DNA from: Symbiobacteriaceae bacterium
GTDB taxonomy: Bacteria; Bacillota; Sulfobacillia; Symbiobacteriales; Symbiobacteriaceae
Length of the DNA: 64,000 bases
Direction of reading: 5' to 3'
Assembly (NCBI GenBank): GCA_029239785.1
Contig: JARBUG010000006.1
Coordinates: 1-64,000, forward strand
Shown: positions 6,745-20,191 of the stretch, in pieces
Numbering within the stretch: the first letter of the stretch is position 1
Layout: the number at the start of each line of letters is the position of its first letter
Translations under genes and position numbers: made by a program
The notes under the pieces: generated by a model
Told to the model about the DNA's origin: nothing
What the model saw: the letters and a program-made list of their open reading frames with translations, nothing else
The model's database searches: none

Positions 6745-6940
6745 GGTCGGTCTGCTCCTTGTGGGCCTGTTTCGCGTCTCATGATGCGCGAGCAGGCAGA
6801 AAAGTTCAAGCCTGAATCGTTGCACTGGCATGTGGGAGGAATTCCCTAGCCTGTGAAGAAAGGAACTTGAGCACCTGGAGATGCTTCTATATGAGAAGCG
6901 CGCTGCGAGCCAGGAACCGACTGGGAAGGGGCAAATCAAC

Positions 6941-7702
6941 ATGGCATTGACGCCGATGGATATCTATAACAAGGAGTTTAAGACCGCCTGGAAGGGGTAC
7001 AACCGCGACGAGGTGGACGCGTTTCTTGACCAGATTATTATCGACTTCAAGTCATTGTTGGAGGGCGACGGCGAAGTGAAGACCTCGCCGGATGAGGTGC
7101 GCCTGAAGCGATTTGGCCGCGCCACCCGGGGCTACGAAGCGGACGATGTCGATGCGTTCCTGCTGCAGGTAGCCCAGGACTTCTCCGAGTTGCTGGGCCA
7201 GCGACGCAGGGCCGAGGAGGCTGCCCGGGCCAGGCGCGCCGGGGCGCAGCGGGTGGCGCCCGTGGCGCCGGAGCCCGCGCCCGTGGCGCCGGAGCCCGCG
7301 CCTGTAGCGCCGGAGCCCGCGCCCGTGGCGCCGGAGCCTGCGCCCGTGGCGCCGGAGCCTGCGCCCGTGGCGCCGGAGCCCGCGCCCGTGGCGCCGGAGC
7401 CCGCGCCGGTCGCACCGGCGCTCCCGCTTGATCTCACCCCCGAGCCCCAGGCGCAGCCCCTGGCCCAACCTGCCCCAGTCTCCGTCACGCAGGCTTATGC
7501 CCCGCCCGCCCGGGCCGGTGCCGGCGCGCTGCCTGTCGAAATCCCCGCTGGCGCTGGCATAATCCGGCTTAGCCTTTCGGGTGGGCGCATCTTCCTGACA
7601 GCCGAATCCCAGGACCTGACCGTACGCAAGGAACTGGATGCCGCCGCTGCCCGCCGACTCGGCGAAGCCCTGCTGCGCATGACCGACTCCCTCGAACGCT
7701 AA
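6941..7702 (+). CDS. Tandem DivIVA-domain protein with Pro/Ala repeat linker
   Basis: A 253-residue protein from ATG 6941 (GGGAAGGGG upstream). The first ~40 residues match the DivIVA N-terminal motif (LTPMDIYNKEFKTAWKGYNR, then EVDAFLDQII), and a second copy follows (RFGRATRGYEADDVDAFLLQ). Next comes an Arg/Ala-rich helix, then about seven copies of APVAPEP, then a compact ~60-residue C-terminal domain (IIRLSLSGGRIFLTAESQDL). DivIVA domains bind curved membrane and recruit division, wall or sporulation proteins. The long coiled coil of classical DivIVA is missing, so this is a divergent adaptor rather than the canonical protein. Confidence 0.8.
   Translation: MALTPMDIYNKEFKTAWKGYNRDEVDAFLDQIIIDFKSLLEGDGEVKTSPDEVRLKRFGRATRGYEADDVDAFLLQVAQDFSELLGQRRRAEEAARARRAGAQRVAPVAPEPAPVAPEPAPVAPEPAPVAPEPAPVAPEPAPVAPEPAPVAPEPAPVAPALPLDLTPEPQAQPLAQPAPVSVTQAYAPPARAGAGALPVEIPAGAGIIRLSLSGGRIFLTAESQDLTVRKELDAAAARRLGEALLRMTDSLER
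7256..7415 (+). repeat. 21-bp in-frame tandem repeat inside the DivIVA-domain gene
   Basis: Seven full copies plus a partial one of a 21-bp unit around GCGCCCGTGGCGCCGGAGCC, coding APVAPEP. Copies differ by only a few silent changes, which suggests recent expansion and likely length variation between strains. Confidence 0.85.
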
Positions 7703-8242: not shown

Positions 8243-8270
8243 TTGACTCTGCCCAATAATGGAATAAAAT
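8243..8270 (+). promoter_or_regulatory. Promoter of the TPR protein gene
   Basis: TTGACT (8243-8248), 16-base spacer, TAAAAT (8265-8270), about 40 bases upstream of the TPR start. Confidence 0.6.
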
Positions 8271-8314: not shown

Positions 8315-9196
8315 GTGGAGCAAAATGTTCACCTGCAGCAACTCTGGGAAGTGCGCAGGTTCAGCGATGCAGGAGCAGAATACCAGCGGCTGCTTACGAC
8401 CGGTGTGGCCGATGCAGAATCACACTTGCTCGGCGCTCTCGTATCACGATTCCAACCTGACCCCGACTACCGCCTTGCGAGGCAGGCGCTGGAACTGGCG
8501 GAAGCCGCCCAACCGACAGGTGTCACCTTAGGCAAAGTTCGCTTGGCCATGGGCAACCTCCTCCGGGAAATCGGCGAAACAACAGCCGCCATTGAGCGCT
8601 ACCAGGCCTTCATTCAAGGCGTGGGCGAGTATAAGGCGCTCCAGGCCGTCTGTATGGGCGTTGCCCACTACAACCTCGGGCTGGCTCTCCGGTGCGCCCG
8701 CCGGTTCGACGAGGCCGTAGCCGCCTACGAAAGTGCCTGCCAGGAATTCCGAGCCAACGACTTCCCCGACTACCTGCGACAGTGTCTGCAAAACATGGCC
8801 TGGCTGCACTGCCTCATGGGCAACGTCCGCGACGCCGAGTCTGCTTTGGTAGAGTCCGAGGAACTCTGCGAATCCGCCGAAGCCCGCTGGCAGCAGCAAG
8901 TTGGCTGGGCTTATCTCGAGGCCATCAGCCAGGAGCACGCCAGCGCCCTGTCACGGTGCGACCGCATCATCAAGGCGGAAGGGGAAGCCTCGCCCGAGGT
9001 AATCAGTCACGCCTACTGGGTAGCTGGGCAGGTAGCCCTTTCACTGGGGCAGGTCGACCAGGCCAGCGTATTGGCAGACCATGCAGTGACCTGGTCCATG
9101 CAGGTGAAAGGCGACATTCGCCCCATGCATGACGCCAACAACCTGCGAAGAGACATAAACCAAAGGAAGATACATAAAGATCGATCGGGGGCTTAG
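8315..9196 (+). CDS. TPR-repeat protein, candidate Rap-like peptide receptor
   Basis: A 293-residue all-helical protein with several tetratricopeptide-like repeats (for example GVAHYNLGLALRCARRFDEA and LQNMAWLHCLMGNVRDAESA). There is no N-terminal helix-turn-helix, signal peptide or membrane segment, so it is cytosolic and not an obvious DNA binder. The gene directly downstream (9251-9409) encodes a tiny Sec-exported peptide on the same strand. TPR protein plus exported peptide is the layout of Rap-Phr and other RRNPP quorum-sensing pairs, where the re-imported peptide binds the TPR groove. That role is inference. GTG 8315 is chosen for its spacing to GGAAGGGG; GTG 8309 is possible. Confidence 0.7.
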   Translation: MEQNVHLQQLWEVRRFSDAGAEYQRLLTTGVADAESHLLGALVSRFQPDPDYRLARQALELAEAAQPTGVTLGKVRLAMGNLLREIGETTAAIERYQAFIQGVGEYKALQAVCMGVAHYNLGLALRCARRFDEAVAAYESACQEFRANDFPDYLRQCLQNMAWLHCLMGNVRDAESALVESEELCESAEARWQQQVGWAYLEAISQEHASALSRCDRIIKAEGEASPEVISHAYWVAGQVALSLGQVDQASVLADHAVTWSMQVKGDIRPMHDANNLRRDINQRKIHKDRSGA

Positions 9197-9203
9197 CGCC
9201 CCC
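9187..9203 (+). terminator. Hairpin at the end of the TPR gene
   Basis: GGGGGC (9187-9192) pairs with GCCCCC (9198-9203) around the TPR stop codon. No T-run follows, so some read-through into the peptide gene is plausible. It may act as an RNA processing or stabilising element. Confidence 0.4.
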
Positions 9204-9218
9204 CTTCCATAAAAATGA

Positions 9219-9236
9219 TTTTCGCTCAGAGCGAAA
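9219..9236 (+). promoter_or_regulatory. Palindrome TTTCGC-N5-GCGAAA directly before the exported-peptide ribosome site
   Basis: TTTCGC (9220-9225), five bases, GCGAAA (9231-9236). The 3' arm touches the ribosome site GGGAGG (9237-9242). It could be a protein operator or an RNA hairpin controlling translation. Identical-type elements occur at 9423-9439, 19303-19319 and 19935-19951. Confidence 0.5.
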
Positions 9237-9250
9237 GGGAGGATTTCCTA

Positions 9251-9409
9251 ATGCGGAAGACGTTTGCTATGCTCCTGGTCACCGGTGTTCTGTTGGGAGT
9301 CGTGGGGACAGCCTTTGCCGGCGAAAACGGCACCATTTGGCCGACGGGGTCGAAAATCCAAGGCACCAAAGTGAAGCTCATGGAGAACGGAAGCATTTGG
9401 CCGTTTTAA
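9251..9409 (+). CDS. 52-residue Sec-exported peptide, candidate Phr-like signal
   Basis: ATG 9251 lies eight bases after GGGAGG. The first ~23 residues are a textbook Sec signal peptide (MRKTFAML... ending TAFAG). The short mature part carries a repeated motif, ENGTIWP then ENGSIWPF at the very C-terminus. The gene sits 54 bases after the TPR gene, is followed by its own terminator, and is bracketed by two TTTCGC-N5-GCGAAA palindromes. Size, export signal and position match precursors of Phr-type pheromones; the repeated ENGxIWP would be the obvious active segment. A bacteriocin or surface peptide is the alternative. Confidence 0.75.
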   Translation: MRKTFAMLLVTGVLLGVVGTAFAGENGTIWPTGSKIQGTKVKLMENGSIWPF

Positions 9410-9422
9410 TCAAACCGTAGGT

Positions 9423-9439
9423 TTTCGCTGCGGGCGAAA
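9423..9439 (+). promoter_or_regulatory. Palindrome TTTCGC-N5-GCGAAA after the exported-peptide gene
   Basis: TTTCGC (9423-9428), TGCGG, GCGAAA (9434-9439), 13 bases past the peptide stop and just before the terminator. Same architecture as the element upstream of the gene. Confidence 0.45.
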
Positions 9440-9440
9440 C

Positions 9441-9470
9441 AAACCCACCCTCGGTATCGAGGGCGGGTTT
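9441..9470 (+). terminator. Terminator of the exported-peptide gene
   Basis: AAACCC-A-CCCTCG pairs with CGAGGG-C-GGGTTT, loop GTAT, followed by TGTCGTCGTC. The poor T-run on the plus strand makes it moderate; it may serve both strands. Confidence 0.6.
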
Positions 9471-9487
9471 GTCGTCGTCTCGGGCAG

Positions 9488-10003
9488 TTATCGGGCTACG
9501 GCTGCCACCCCAAGGATTTCATCCATCAGTTGCGTTGCAGGCACGCCGGCGTGCATCTCTTGCTGGAGGCGGGCCACTTGCGTCGCCCGTTGTGGGTCGG
9601 TAATGACCTGCACTTCCACCAGCTGGGGGAACTGGGCGAGCACGCGCTTCCGGATGTTCTGCTGCAGTGTGGGGCTGATTGCAGGCCATACCTGCGGGTC
9701 GATGCCAACAAAGGCCACATTCCCGACAATGACCGCCGATGCGCCCATCGCCTGGGTGGCCGCCCCGCTGGCGCTTCCGGCTCCGGCCGGGCTGCCAACG
9801 GCCCCGGCCGTGTGTGTCATCCCAATGCCGCCGTCCGGGGTCCCGCCGGGCGAATGCGTAAAGCTTCCACCCTGAATCACATTCGCAGCAAACGCCGACA
9901 CACGCGTGCTAAAGTCAGGCTGGGGCTCCGGGCGCCGCATCGGGCCGGCACATCCGGCAAGCAGTACAAGCGAGGCTGCCGCACCAAGTATGCGCCGGTT
10001 CAT
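9488..10003 (-). CDS. YhcN/YlaJ-type lipoprotein
   Basis: A 171-residue protein with a signal peptide and lipobox (LLAGC, lipidated Cys18). A Gly/Ala-rich linker follows, then a domain with the YhcN/YlaJ pattern: VIVGNVAFVGIDP, then RKRVLAQFPQLVEVQVITDP. Family members in Bacillus are spore or membrane-associated lipoproteins of poorly known function. The ATG at 10003 shares its A with the stop codon of the upstream paralogue, indicating translational coupling in a two-gene operon. Confidence 0.8.
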   Translation of the reverse strand: MNRRILGAAASLVLLAGCAGPMRRPEPQPDFSTRVSAFAANVIQGGSFTHSPGGTPDGGIGMTHTAGAVGSPAGAGSASGAATQAMGASAVIVGNVAFVGIDPQVWPAISPTLQQNIRKRVLAQFPQLVEVQVITDPQRATQVARLQQEMHAGVPATQLMDEILGVAAVAR

Positions 10004-10749
10004 CAGCGGGGGCTCGACGAGGCGGGGGCCAGCCGCCGGATGATCTGTACGATATCAGCGTCGGCGCCGGTGTGTCCGGCGGTGGTCACGCGGGCGATCT
10101 GCCTGACCAACCCCGGCTCTGTAGTCACGTACACTTCCGTCACCTCAGGAAACTCCGACCGAACCCGATCCCGAAGGAATCCTTCGAGTCCGGCGCCGGC
10201 CGGGCCCCTGGCATCACCCGTTGTGCTGGCGGCATTCCCGCCCATCACTTGCCCCACTCCGATGGTCGTAGGATCGATGCCAATAAAGGCCCGGTTTCCT
10301 ACGACCATTGTCGAAACCCCGACGCCCCGCCCGATGCGGGAGGTGTCGGCGCCGGTCATGTCCGCAGCCATGTCACGGCCGGCGCCAATCTGCCCAGCGC
10401 CCGCTCCGCCACCGCCGCCGTAGCCACCGGCAAGCGGACCGATCCACACGTTGGTGCCTCCGTTAATCACATCGAGCCCGGCCACATAATTGGAAATGCG
10501 CTGGCCCAGGTCGGCGGCAGGCGCAGGCGGAGTCCGCTGTGCCGTTTCGGTCCACGGCTGCGCCTGCGTCTCTCCCGCAGCCCCGAATCCCGCCCCCAGC
10601 GATCCGTATACGCTGCCCGGGGCGGCCCCGCCACCACCCATTGGTCCCTGGCCCAGACCGCCGCGTTGGGGTGCCGGCACAGCACATCCACTCATTAACA
10701 CGGCCGAGAGGGTCGTGGCTAGCAAGCATTGCGTCAGGCGGTTGCCCAT
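10003..10749 (-). CDS. YhcN/YlaJ-type lipoprotein (longer paralogue)
   Basis: A 248-residue lipoprotein: lipobox LMSGC (Cys22), a long Gly-rich region (for example GGYGGGGGAGAG), then the YhcN-like domain (STMVVGNRAFIGIDP ... LRDRVRSEFPEVTEVYVTTEP). It is a paralogue of the next gene in the operon; the two share the VGNxAFxGIDP and V(Y/Q)V(T/I)T(E/D)P blocks. ATG 10749 lies behind AGAGGTGA; longer upstream frames lack a ribosome site and precede the signal peptide. The presence of this family supports a spore-forming host. Confidence 0.8.
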   Translation of the reverse strand: MGNRLTQCLLATTLSAVLMSGCAVPAPQRGGLGQGPMGGGGAAPGSVYGSLGAGFGAAGETQAQPWTETAQRTPPAPAADLGQRISNYVAGLDVINGGTNVWIGPLAGGYGGGGGAGAGQIGAGRDMAADMTGADTSRIGRGVGVSTMVVGNRAFIGIDPTTIGVGQVMGGNAASTTGDARGPAGAGLEGFLRDRVRSEFPEVTEVYVTTEPGLVRQIARVTTAGHTGADADIVQIIRRLAPASSSPR

Positions 10750-18329: not shown

Positions 18330-19262
18330 GTGACCGAAGCATTACTCGAACTACAAAACCTGGTCGTACTGCGGCACACGGACCCGACGGGATTCTTCGG
18401 ACTGTGGGGCGCCCGCCCCGTGCGGGCCCTGGACGGCGTCAGCCTGACGCTGCGCCGGGGCGAAACACTGGGCATTATGGGGGGCGCCGGCGGCGGAAAG
18501 ACGACGCTGGCCGAGGCGGCGACCCTGCGCCGGGCGCCGGACCGGGGGCGCATCCTCTTTGAGGGCCGCGACGTCACCTCTATTCGCGGCGGCGAGAAGG
18601 ATAAGCTGCAGCGCCGTCTGCAGATGATCCGGCAGGATGCCCGGGAGAGCCTGGAGATGGATCAGCCCGTGGGCAAGCAGTTTCGTGACCGCATGAAGCA
18701 GTATGGGCTGAACGATCCCGACAGCCGCATCCGGCGGGCGCTGGAACAGGTGGAGTTGGGGGCCGAGTTTGCCGACCGGACGCCCTTGCAAATGTCGGGC
18801 GGGCAGCAGCAGCGGGTGGCCATTGCCCGGGCGCTGGCGCTCAACCCGATCATGGTGGCGGCAGACGAGCCCGTCAGCGGCGTCGACCCACACTTGCAGC
18901 GGGATATGCTGACCATGCTGGAGCGGGTCCAGAAGCAGCAGAACCTGACGTACCTGCTGATTTCCCAGGAGCGGAAGACGATTGCACGCCTGGCCCACCG
19001 GGTGGCCGTGCTAGACTCGGGTCGGCTCTACGAAACGGGGCTGGCGGAGAAGGTCCTGACGGAGGCGAAGCATCCCTACAGCCGGCTCTTCCTGGGCCTG
19101 GAGCCGGGGGAGATCCCCTTTGAAGAAGACCGGGTTGGCAAGGTGATTTCCGGCTGCCCGTTTGCCGGGACATGCCCGGCTGTCACCGCACGGTGCCGGA
19201 CGGAAATGCCCGCCGCCCGGGAAGTGGGCGCTGGCCACCAGGTAGCATGCCACGCCATATGA
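18330..19262 (+). CDS. Orphan ABC ATPase of the oligopeptide (OppF/DppF) type
   Basis: A 310-residue ATP-binding subunit: Walker A GGAGGGKTT, signature MSGGQQQRVAIARAL, Walker B/D-loop VAADEPVSGVD. The C-terminal extension (HPYSRLFLGLEPGE... GCPFAGTCP...CRTEMP) is the oligo_HPY-type tail of peptide importers, with several cysteines. No permease or binding protein is near, so its partners must be encoded elsewhere or it is a relic. GTG 18330 has GGGAGGATCACC upstream. It lies 22 bases after the NIF3-family gene and is closed by a terminator. Confidence 0.85.
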   Translation: MTEALLELQNLVVLRHTDPTGFFGLWGARPVRALDGVSLTLRRGETLGIMGGAGGGKTTLAEAATLRRAPDRGRILFEGRDVTSIRGGEKDKLQRRLQMIRQDARESLEMDQPVGKQFRDRMKQYGLNDPDSRIRRALEQVELGAEFADRTPLQMSGGQQQRVAIARALALNPIMVAADEPVSGVDPHLQRDMLTMLERVQKQQNLTYLLISQERKTIARLAHRVAVLDSGRLYETGLAEKVLTEAKHPYSRLFLGLEPGEIPFEEDRVGKVISGCPFAGTCPAVTARCRTEMPAAREVGAGHQVACHAI

Positions 19263-19390: not shown

Positions 19391-20191
19391 ATGAATGCCG
19401 AAACACTGTTGCTGGTATTGCCCAGTGTTCAGGATTCCGCGGGCGGGGGACTGACCCTCAATCAGTGGGGTAACATGCTCGACCAGTTTGCCGGGCAAGG
19501 CGGGCGTGAACTGCTGCTCGGCGGCGCTGAGCCGCTAGCGTTCCCCGGCTTTTGGGTGCTGGTCCGCCGGGGCATCAAGGCCAAACTCCCCCGGGTCACG
19601 GCCTACCTGAGCGGCGCCCTTTTGGAGCCGTGGGTCATGCGTACGCTGGTGGAAAGCGGTATTCATCTGCTGGTCGCGCTGGACGGTCTCCAGCCTGAAA
19701 AGCACGACGCCATGCACGGCCCCGGCAGCCATGCGCGGGCCATGGCCGCAATCGAAACCTTCCTGAACCAGGGGCTTTCCGCACGCCTGGGCATTCTTGC
19801 CACCGCAACGGAACTGAACCGGGCAGACCTGCCTGTGCTGGCAGCCTGGGCGGCCGGCCGCGGCCTCTCCCGGGTCGTTTGGACCTGCGTGCCCGACGGC
19901 GGCTGGCCATCCGAGCAACTCAAGGCGCTGCGCCTTTCGCCCCAGGCGAAAATGGAGCTGGCCGAACAAATGCATGCCGTAGCCCGGGGCGTGGCTGCCA
20001 CTACCTACGTGGGCCCCCTGGACATGCTGGAAGATGCGGCCCTCTTCCCCGGCTGCTCGCCGTTGCTGCGCGTCGCAAACCATGGCGAGGCGTCGTGGGG
20101 CTTCTCGGGCGATGGTGGGTACGCCGGCAACCTCAAGTGGACCGGCCTTGCCGACCTGCTCAGCCGGAACGCCCAGGCCGCAGGCGATTGA
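19391..20191 (+). CDS. Radical-SAM-like protein lacking the CxxxCxxC cluster motif
   Basis: A 266-residue protein. The stretch LLLGGAEPLAFPGFWVLVRR, then LVALDGLQPEKHDAMHGPGS and RLGILATATELNRADLPVLA, follows the MoaA/PqqE radical-SAM barrel order (GGEPL; SLDG...HD..RG.GS; N...L). The N-terminal CxxxCxxC that binds the 4Fe-4S cluster is absent; only two Cys occur in the whole protein (VWTCVPDG and PGCSPLL). It is probably catalytically dead or repurposed. It starts a run with a GNAT and a small exported peptide. I chose ATG 19391; a GGGGGG-rich ribosome site precedes it. Confidence 0.6.
   Translation: MNAETLLLVLPSVQDSAGGGLTLNQWGNMLDQFAGQGGRELLLGGAEPLAFPGFWVLVRRGIKAKLPRVTAYLSGALLEPWVMRTLVESGIHLLVALDGLQPEKHDAMHGPGSHARAMAAIETFLNQGLSARLGILATATELNRADLPVLAAWAAGRGLSRVVWTCVPDGGWPSEQLKALRLSPQAKMELAEQMHAVARGVAATTYVGPLDMLEDAALFPGCSPLLRVANHGEASWGFSGDGGYAGNLKWTGLADLLSRNAQAAGD
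19935..19951 (+). promoter_or_regulatory. Fourth TTTCGC-N5-GCGAAA palindrome, inside the radical-SAM-like gene
   Basis: TTTCGC (19935-19940), CCCAG, GCGAAA (19946-19951), within codons for LSPQAK. Being coding, it may be coincidental, but it matches the other three copies exactly in arms and spacing. Confidence 0.3.

Follow-up and report, generated by a model that had tools for sequence, protein, structure and literature searches.

A TPR protein and an adjoining predicted exported peptide with a duplicated ENGxIWP core form a candidate Rap-Phr-like signalling pair in Symbiobacteriales

What is known of RRNPP signalling comes mainly from Bacillales, Lactobacillales and some Clostridia. In the Rap-Phr systems of Bacillus, its phages and plasmids, a TPR protein without HTH is encoded next to a short downstream propeptide exported by Sec, and one genome can hold many paralogous pairs. 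The N-terminal 3-helix bundle is the effector domain of Rap, and the signal of a typical Phr is C-terminal. Some of these propeptides, among them Phr105 and Phr3T, carry a functional duplicated signal, and the pheromone is anchored by Asn220 of Rap105 (PMC11343458). RRNPPA receptors in general (Rgg, NprR, PlcR, PrgX, AimR, TprA, QssR) have an HTH; besides Rap, "Subfamily 17" of Anoxybacter fermentans is said to have lost it (PMC12700828). Candidate pairs can be recognised by propeptide size, Sec signal, receptor length, TPRs and adjacency, and the gaps of the reference pairs range from -50 to +191 bases (PMC10075063).

We analysed a 64,000-nucleotide stretch (the window) of a Symbiobacteriaceae genome, a 5.5-Mb draft of 302 contigs (GCA_029239785.1). 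A sequence-only reading of the window had proposed a Rap-Phr-like pair, whose features are collected in Table 1. The upstream gene starts with GTG, stops at 9194-9196 and encodes 293 residues. Pfam found TPR_12 (E=7.8e-11) and TPR_2 (3.2e-7) in this protein and neither an HTH nor the Rap N-terminal domain, so by Pfam it has no recognised output domain. This agreed with the HTH-less TPR protein of the sequence-only reading, and it sets the protein apart from RRNPPA receptors in general. AlphaFold2, run on the protein aligned with one relative, gave a confident model (pLDDT 88.5, pTM 0.81) of seven helical hairpins followed by a long capping helix at the C-terminus, with the TPR-like hairpins beginning at residue 2. 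Foldseek matched this model to generic peptide-binding TPR superhelices, and no RRNPP protein was among the top 50 matches. The best matches, LGN/Pins and consensus TPRs, have peptide-binding TPR grooves, but they are eukaryotic or designed and have no exported partner peptide. We regard the 293-aa protein as a candidate intracellular peptide receptor. Two promoter-like sites were found in 2.1 kb, versus 0.7 expected in shuffles.

Table 1. Features of the TPR-peptide pair and their coordinates in the window
Feature	Position	Strand	Basis
Sigma-70-like promoter match TTGACT-16-TAAAAT, 5' of the TPR gene	8243..8270	+	Consensus match only
TPR protein, candidate intracellular peptide receptor	8315..9196	+	ORF, Pfam, model, family searches
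Perfect hairpin TTTCGCT CAG AGCGAAA, directly 5' of the ribosome-binding site of the peptide	9220..9236	.	Sequence
Ribosome-binding site GGGAGG, 8 bases 5' of the peptide ATG	9237..9242	+	Read from sequence
52-aa exported propeptide gene (export predicted)	9251..9409	+	ORF, fixed filter; paralogue adjoins the C37 TPR gene
Predicted Sec signal peptide, residues 1-23, AFA/G cleavage site	9251..9319	+	Rule-based
First candidate signal core copy, ENGTIWP	9323..9343	+	Motif
Second candidate signal core copy, ENGSIWPF, C-terminal	9383..9406	+	Motif
Strong hairpin 3' of the peptide stop (CAAACCCACCCTCG-GTAT-CGAGGGCGGGTTTG)	9440..9471	.	Read directly from sequence

The downstream gene starts with ATG 54 bases after the TPR gene and encodes the 52-residue product MRKTFAMLLVTGVLLGVVGTAFA/GENGTIWPTGSKIQGTKVKLMENGSIWPF, where the slash marks the predicted cleavage. 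The n-, h- and c-regions of a Sec signal were all recognised by rule, and cleavage at AFA/G would leave a mature part of 29 aa. The spacing and the Sec-type signal were thus as the sequence-only reading had described them. Within the mature part ENGxIWP occurs twice, at residues 25-31 and 45-51. The duplication claimed by that reading is real, but its second copy is not strictly at the C-terminus, where F52 follows (...ENGSIWPF). When the mature part was shuffled 20,000 times, no shuffle reached this repeat. At the DNA level the two copies are two synonymous changes and one T-to-S change apart, so the protein sequence of ENGxIWP seems to be what is kept. Like Phr105 and Phr3T, this propeptide holds a duplicated core, here a candidate signal.

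Two hairpins flank the peptide gene. The one before the ribosome-binding site could modulate translation of the peptide; a similar TTTTCGCT..GGGCGAAA sequence was seen just 3' of the ORF (about 9421-9440). The hairpin behind the stop codon is likely the terminator of the two-gene unit; the terminator scan did not call it, probably due to its weak T run. No RNA families or tRNAs were found in the window.

The immediate neighbours of the pair encode DivIVA, HPr, two YhcN/YlaJ-like spore lipoproteins and a MASE3-PAS-GGDEF protein, and none of these is found beside the related C37 and C296 pairs. The two lipoprotein genes are adjacent, lie on the minus strand (9488-10743) and converge on the pair; the second scores below the Pfam cut-off. 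These genes give the pair a possible sporulation context. The DivIVA-domain protein (6881-7702) has a near-identical Ala-Pro-Val-Ala-Pro-Glu-Pro repeat run between its N-terminal domain and its C-terminus. Farther away, a lone ABC ATPase (18330-19262) is followed by a radical SAM protein (19391-20191), and no permease adjoins it in the ORF list. This ATPase had been suggested as part of the peptide importer. Its oligo_HPY match is weak (24.8 bits versus a cut-off of 27.1) and nothing ties it to the pair.

Homologues were listed by TPR similarity alone, with the peptide gene ignored. Profile A1, searched over 41 genomes at E<=1e-8, gave 20 places, one of which is a contig-edge fragment, leaving 19 complete genes. 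A short exported ORF lies at the 3' end of 18 of these 19 genes, between -62 and +188 bases of the stop codon. A fixed filter (an ORF of 25-60 aa with a hydrophobic core and a ribosome-binding site, located within -80 to +200 bases) found it behind 17 of the 19 homologues and, in 464 kb, behind none of 277 further genes (Fisher 9e-26). In those 464 kb the TPR gene of the window was the single positive among 278 genes. The pair missed by the filter (G005:C57) reads VRRWLALLLAALVLGLLAGTAIA/YPNGPIWPEETVHTVGYDR, and its G006 orthologue passes. As a control, the same filter, applied to Bacillus phage phi105, recovered Phr105 behind Rap105; this propeptide is known to contain ERPVGT twice. Homologues lacking the peptide gene everywhere would have spoken against the proposed pairing; the outcome was the opposite.

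When more distant members were included, at least 24 TPR-peptide pairs were found in seven Symbiobacteriales genomes. The source genome holds eight and G002 six, of which one is truncated by a contig end; G006 has three, G003 has one, and G001, G004 and G005 have two apiece. The gaps of these pairs range from -77 to +188 bases, close to those of the reference RRNPP pairs. The TPR paralogues in the source genome, searched with the TPR protein, share 26-35% identity, and the closest ones each have their own short exported ORF 3' of the gene. In a class-wide search, all full-length, high-scoring TPR members fell in two families of Symbiobacteriales; elsewhere in the class (154 genomes of other families), matches were weaker and lay mostly inside longer generic TPR proteins. 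A scan of named genomes with the TPR alignment gave a sole match, a contig of one relative (MAG "Bacillota bacterium isolate RYN_353"). The TPR protein of the window had no match in plasmids or phages and none in PHROGs, and a mobile-element or phage origin was rejected on this ground. The pair belongs to an order-wide Symbiobacteriales family, expanded and diversified like Rap-Phr in Bacillus, where many paralogous pairs per genome are likewise found.

Some related TPR genes stand alone. One close family member (G003:C26, L107) has no exported ORF 3' of it and would be an orphan receptor. A supported sister clade of nine TPRs (313-375 aa, often about 327 aa) also has no peptide gene (L098, L102, L103, L091, L089, L092, L016). 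Because this clade is kept across genera, its members may have another job or use a peptide encoded elsewhere.

The rule-based mature parts across the family are 7-29 aa long and near-neutral (charge -2 to +2). Many start with a core that follows the pattern xNGxIxP or xPNGxxxxD, such as GENGTIWPT, SNGNGTIWPT, HPNGPIWPD, YPNGPIWPE and SPNGTVGLD, with GPKWPVVLD as a looser variant. The peptide of the C37 paralogue (MRKAIALLFVLTVLGIVTGVASA/SNGNGTIWPTEVVR) has the NGTIWPT core in common with the window peptide, and the peptides of the two C296 pairs share DNIGGVGVKS and GDIGGVGVKS. The IWP core adjoins four diverged TPR lineages (counting RPIWP of C22) in two bacterial families. In eight genomes, short exported ORFs with NGxIWP were found exclusively beside TPR genes of this family; five further DNA matches coding for NGxIWP were all outside exported short ORFs. 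An occurrence of the peptide beside unrelated genes, which would have spoken against the proposal, was not seen in these genomes. The sequence-only reading had also suggested a survey of the homologues for conserved small exported ORFs ending in xIWPF. Small exported ORFs are conserved there. In most members the NGxIWP-like core directly follows the signal-peptidase cleavage, unlike the C-terminal signal of a typical Phr.

Comparison of orthologues showed that the family peptides evolve as coding sequence. Orthologous peptide genes have dN/dS of 0.21-0.59 and change most at third positions. In sister species PNGPIWP and PNGTVGLD are invariant, and the flanks and tail drift. The G001 and G003 orthologues have mature parts of just 10 residues (EPRSGGPSSF versus EPRTAGPTIW); judged from these sequences, the conserved head and altered tail look like a change of signal type. 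At G004:C25 (L101) the mature part is 7 residues, and the ORF MKRRSLVVAAVLILVMALGACLSKPVL looks truncated relative to its G001 relative. A second class of exported peptides adjoins distant TPR relatives (L097, G001, about 1,131,500-1,136,000; L100, G004:C72; L016, G000:C2). These peptides (ACNGGSGGPPPPPTGSKC, ACNGGNGNGGPPPSESGC, GSCGPAYPGDAPC, GGTCTGAAYPGDVPC) have a Cys-bounded, Gly/Pro-rich C-terminal stretch and are possibly disulfide-closed. In the G000:C2 cluster, two such peptides accompany three TPR genes in tandem.

The receptor was compared with Rap in more than one way. RapH and RapF do match the family profile (4e-11 and 4e-10), but they rank below many unrelated TPRs, and the match therefore does not establish descent from Rap. 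Fold and sequence comparison together gave no preference for RRNPP proteins over other TPRs. RapH_N (PF18801), the 3-helix bundle, was found neither in the 17 family members scanned nor in any of eight searched genomes of the order, while the control found it in B. subtilis. Filing the protein as a Rap was rejected for this absence, and filing it as an HTH-type RRNPP receptor was rejected since Pfam found no HTH. The protein thus differs from Rap in the missing N-terminal effector bundle. In the TPR domain the widest profile, A2, is colinear with Rap105 over residues 128-378, which comprise its seven TPRs and exclude the N-terminal bundle.

Profiles A1, A2 and A3 all put the Asn120 column of the family on the pheromone-anchoring Asn220 of Rap105 (annotated residue 239); alignments of the single protein with Rap105 were too weak, with no significant similarity. 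Asn120 is kept in 11 of 17 peptide-paired lineages versus none of nine in the peptide-less sister clade (p 0.002, ignoring shared ancestry), and Asn160 in 12 of 17 versus one of nine (p 0.01, likewise ignoring shared ancestry). By sequence, these two groove residues appear to be linked to the presence of a peptide; Asn is also frequent at the Asn120 TPR position in TPRs generally. A few receptor columns are candidates for tracking the IWP peptides, from too few independent cases to support such a link.

With the pairing, the rule-based signal peptides, the coding constraint, the shared core and the confident TPR superhelix model as observations, we infer that the two genes probably form a peptide-signalling unit working like Rap-Phr, through export, processing, re-import, groove binding and regulation by protein contact. 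Sec would export the 52-aa propeptide, and signal peptidase would cleave it at AFA/G. Extracellular trimming of the 29-aa product would then yield one or two short Trp-Pro peptides, centred on ENGTIWP(T) and ENGSIWPF, which may be taken up via one of the oligopeptide permeases of the cell; the source genome has about 17 matches to OppA/DppA-type binding proteins. Inside, they would bind the concave groove of the TPR protein, anchored by asparagines of the groove such as Asn120 and Asn160, and binding would alter which target protein the TPR protein binds. The earlier claim of a Rap-Phr-like pair is well supported in the sense of "works like", because 18 of 19 homologues are paired and NGxIWP exported ORFs occur solely beside the TPR genes. 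It needs qualifying in three respects: the protein is not a Rap, as there is no RapH_N; the core is mostly N-terminal in the mature peptide; and nothing ties the ATPase at 18330 to the pair.

The peptide might instead act outside the cell, on a membrane sensor, the envelope or other cells, without re-import. The TPR protein would then assist it from the cytosol, perhaps by chaperoning its export or regulating its synthesis; TPR proteins often are adaptors or chaperones. The pairing and the export signal fit this explanation equally well. Some mature parts are 20-29 aa, which is long for an Opp substrate, and some peptides end in Cys pairs, which would suit a closed extracellular peptide. However, a precursor of 40-50 aa needs no dedicated Sec chaperone, two orthologues have mature parts of 10 aa that suit uptake and TPR binding, and the pheromone-anchoring groove Asn of Rap is kept in most peptide-paired lineages but not in the peptide-less clade. 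We consider extracellular action unlikely. A bacteriocin-like or self-toxic peptide, for which the TPR protein would provide immunity or regulation, would account for the two-gene layout and the multiplied paralogues. Bacteriocins are cationic or amphipathic, whereas the mature parts here are short and near-neutral; the TPR protein is cytosolic, and no transporter or membrane immunity gene adjoins the pair in the window. The window TPR protein matches no PADLOC family, and the few family members with matches there hit generic TPR models. A toxin is a quite improbable explanation.

Any DNA contains many short ORFs, and the one here could have arisen by chance after a housekeeping TPR gene. This is already very unlikely given the controls. 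The fixed filter separates the homologues from the control genes, paralogues and orthologues keep the signal peptide and core with synonymous change, and the ENGxIWP repeat lies beyond the shuffles. A chance ORF was rejected by these three results. Signalling by a re-imported peptide is the explanation we prefer.

The pair at 8315-9409 falls within all five computational RRNPP criteria of PMC10075063. The receptor of 293 aa lies in the range of 250-500 aa and has TPRs, the 52-aa propeptide lies in the range of 10-100 aa and has a rule-based Sec signal, and the gap of 54 bp lies between -60 and +400 bp; pairing is also kept among homologues (18/19; control 0/277). Compared with the 21 candidate subfamilies of RRNPP_detector (PMC10075063), our family is confined to Symbiobacteriales in the searches made. 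"Subfamily 17" is set apart by its description, which groups it with nine-TPR folds, whereas our model has seven hairpins. No published description of the family, and no paper treating Symbiobacterium together with Rap-Phr, was found in the open-access literature, and Symbiobacterium is unnamed in the main texts of the RRNPP surveys. The TPR-peptide family in Symbiobacteriales is apparently so far undescribed.

A broader proposal, to which we give about an even chance, is that Symbiobacteriales own a large lineage-specific pheromone repertoire, in which a bare TPR superhelix, lacking both a DNA-binding and a phosphatase domain, is the receptor and an N-terminally placed NG-x-IWP-type signal switches the protein contacts of its groove. 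This would be a third RRNPP-like output mode, possibly with an origin independent of Rap. The family would also bear on the form of the ancestral receptor, an open question in PMC12700828. With at least 24 receptor-peptide pairs in the high-GC Symbiobacteriales, it would widen the range of RRNPP signalling. If true, there would be a large set of peptide "quorum" signals and in-cell receptors without a known output domain. The peptide gene adjoining the G001 candidate receptor is predicted to give a ready-made signal of 10 residues, EPRSGGPSSF, which is directly testable. Symbiobacterium is known for its dependence on partner bacteria, and exported signals would be of interest in this respect.
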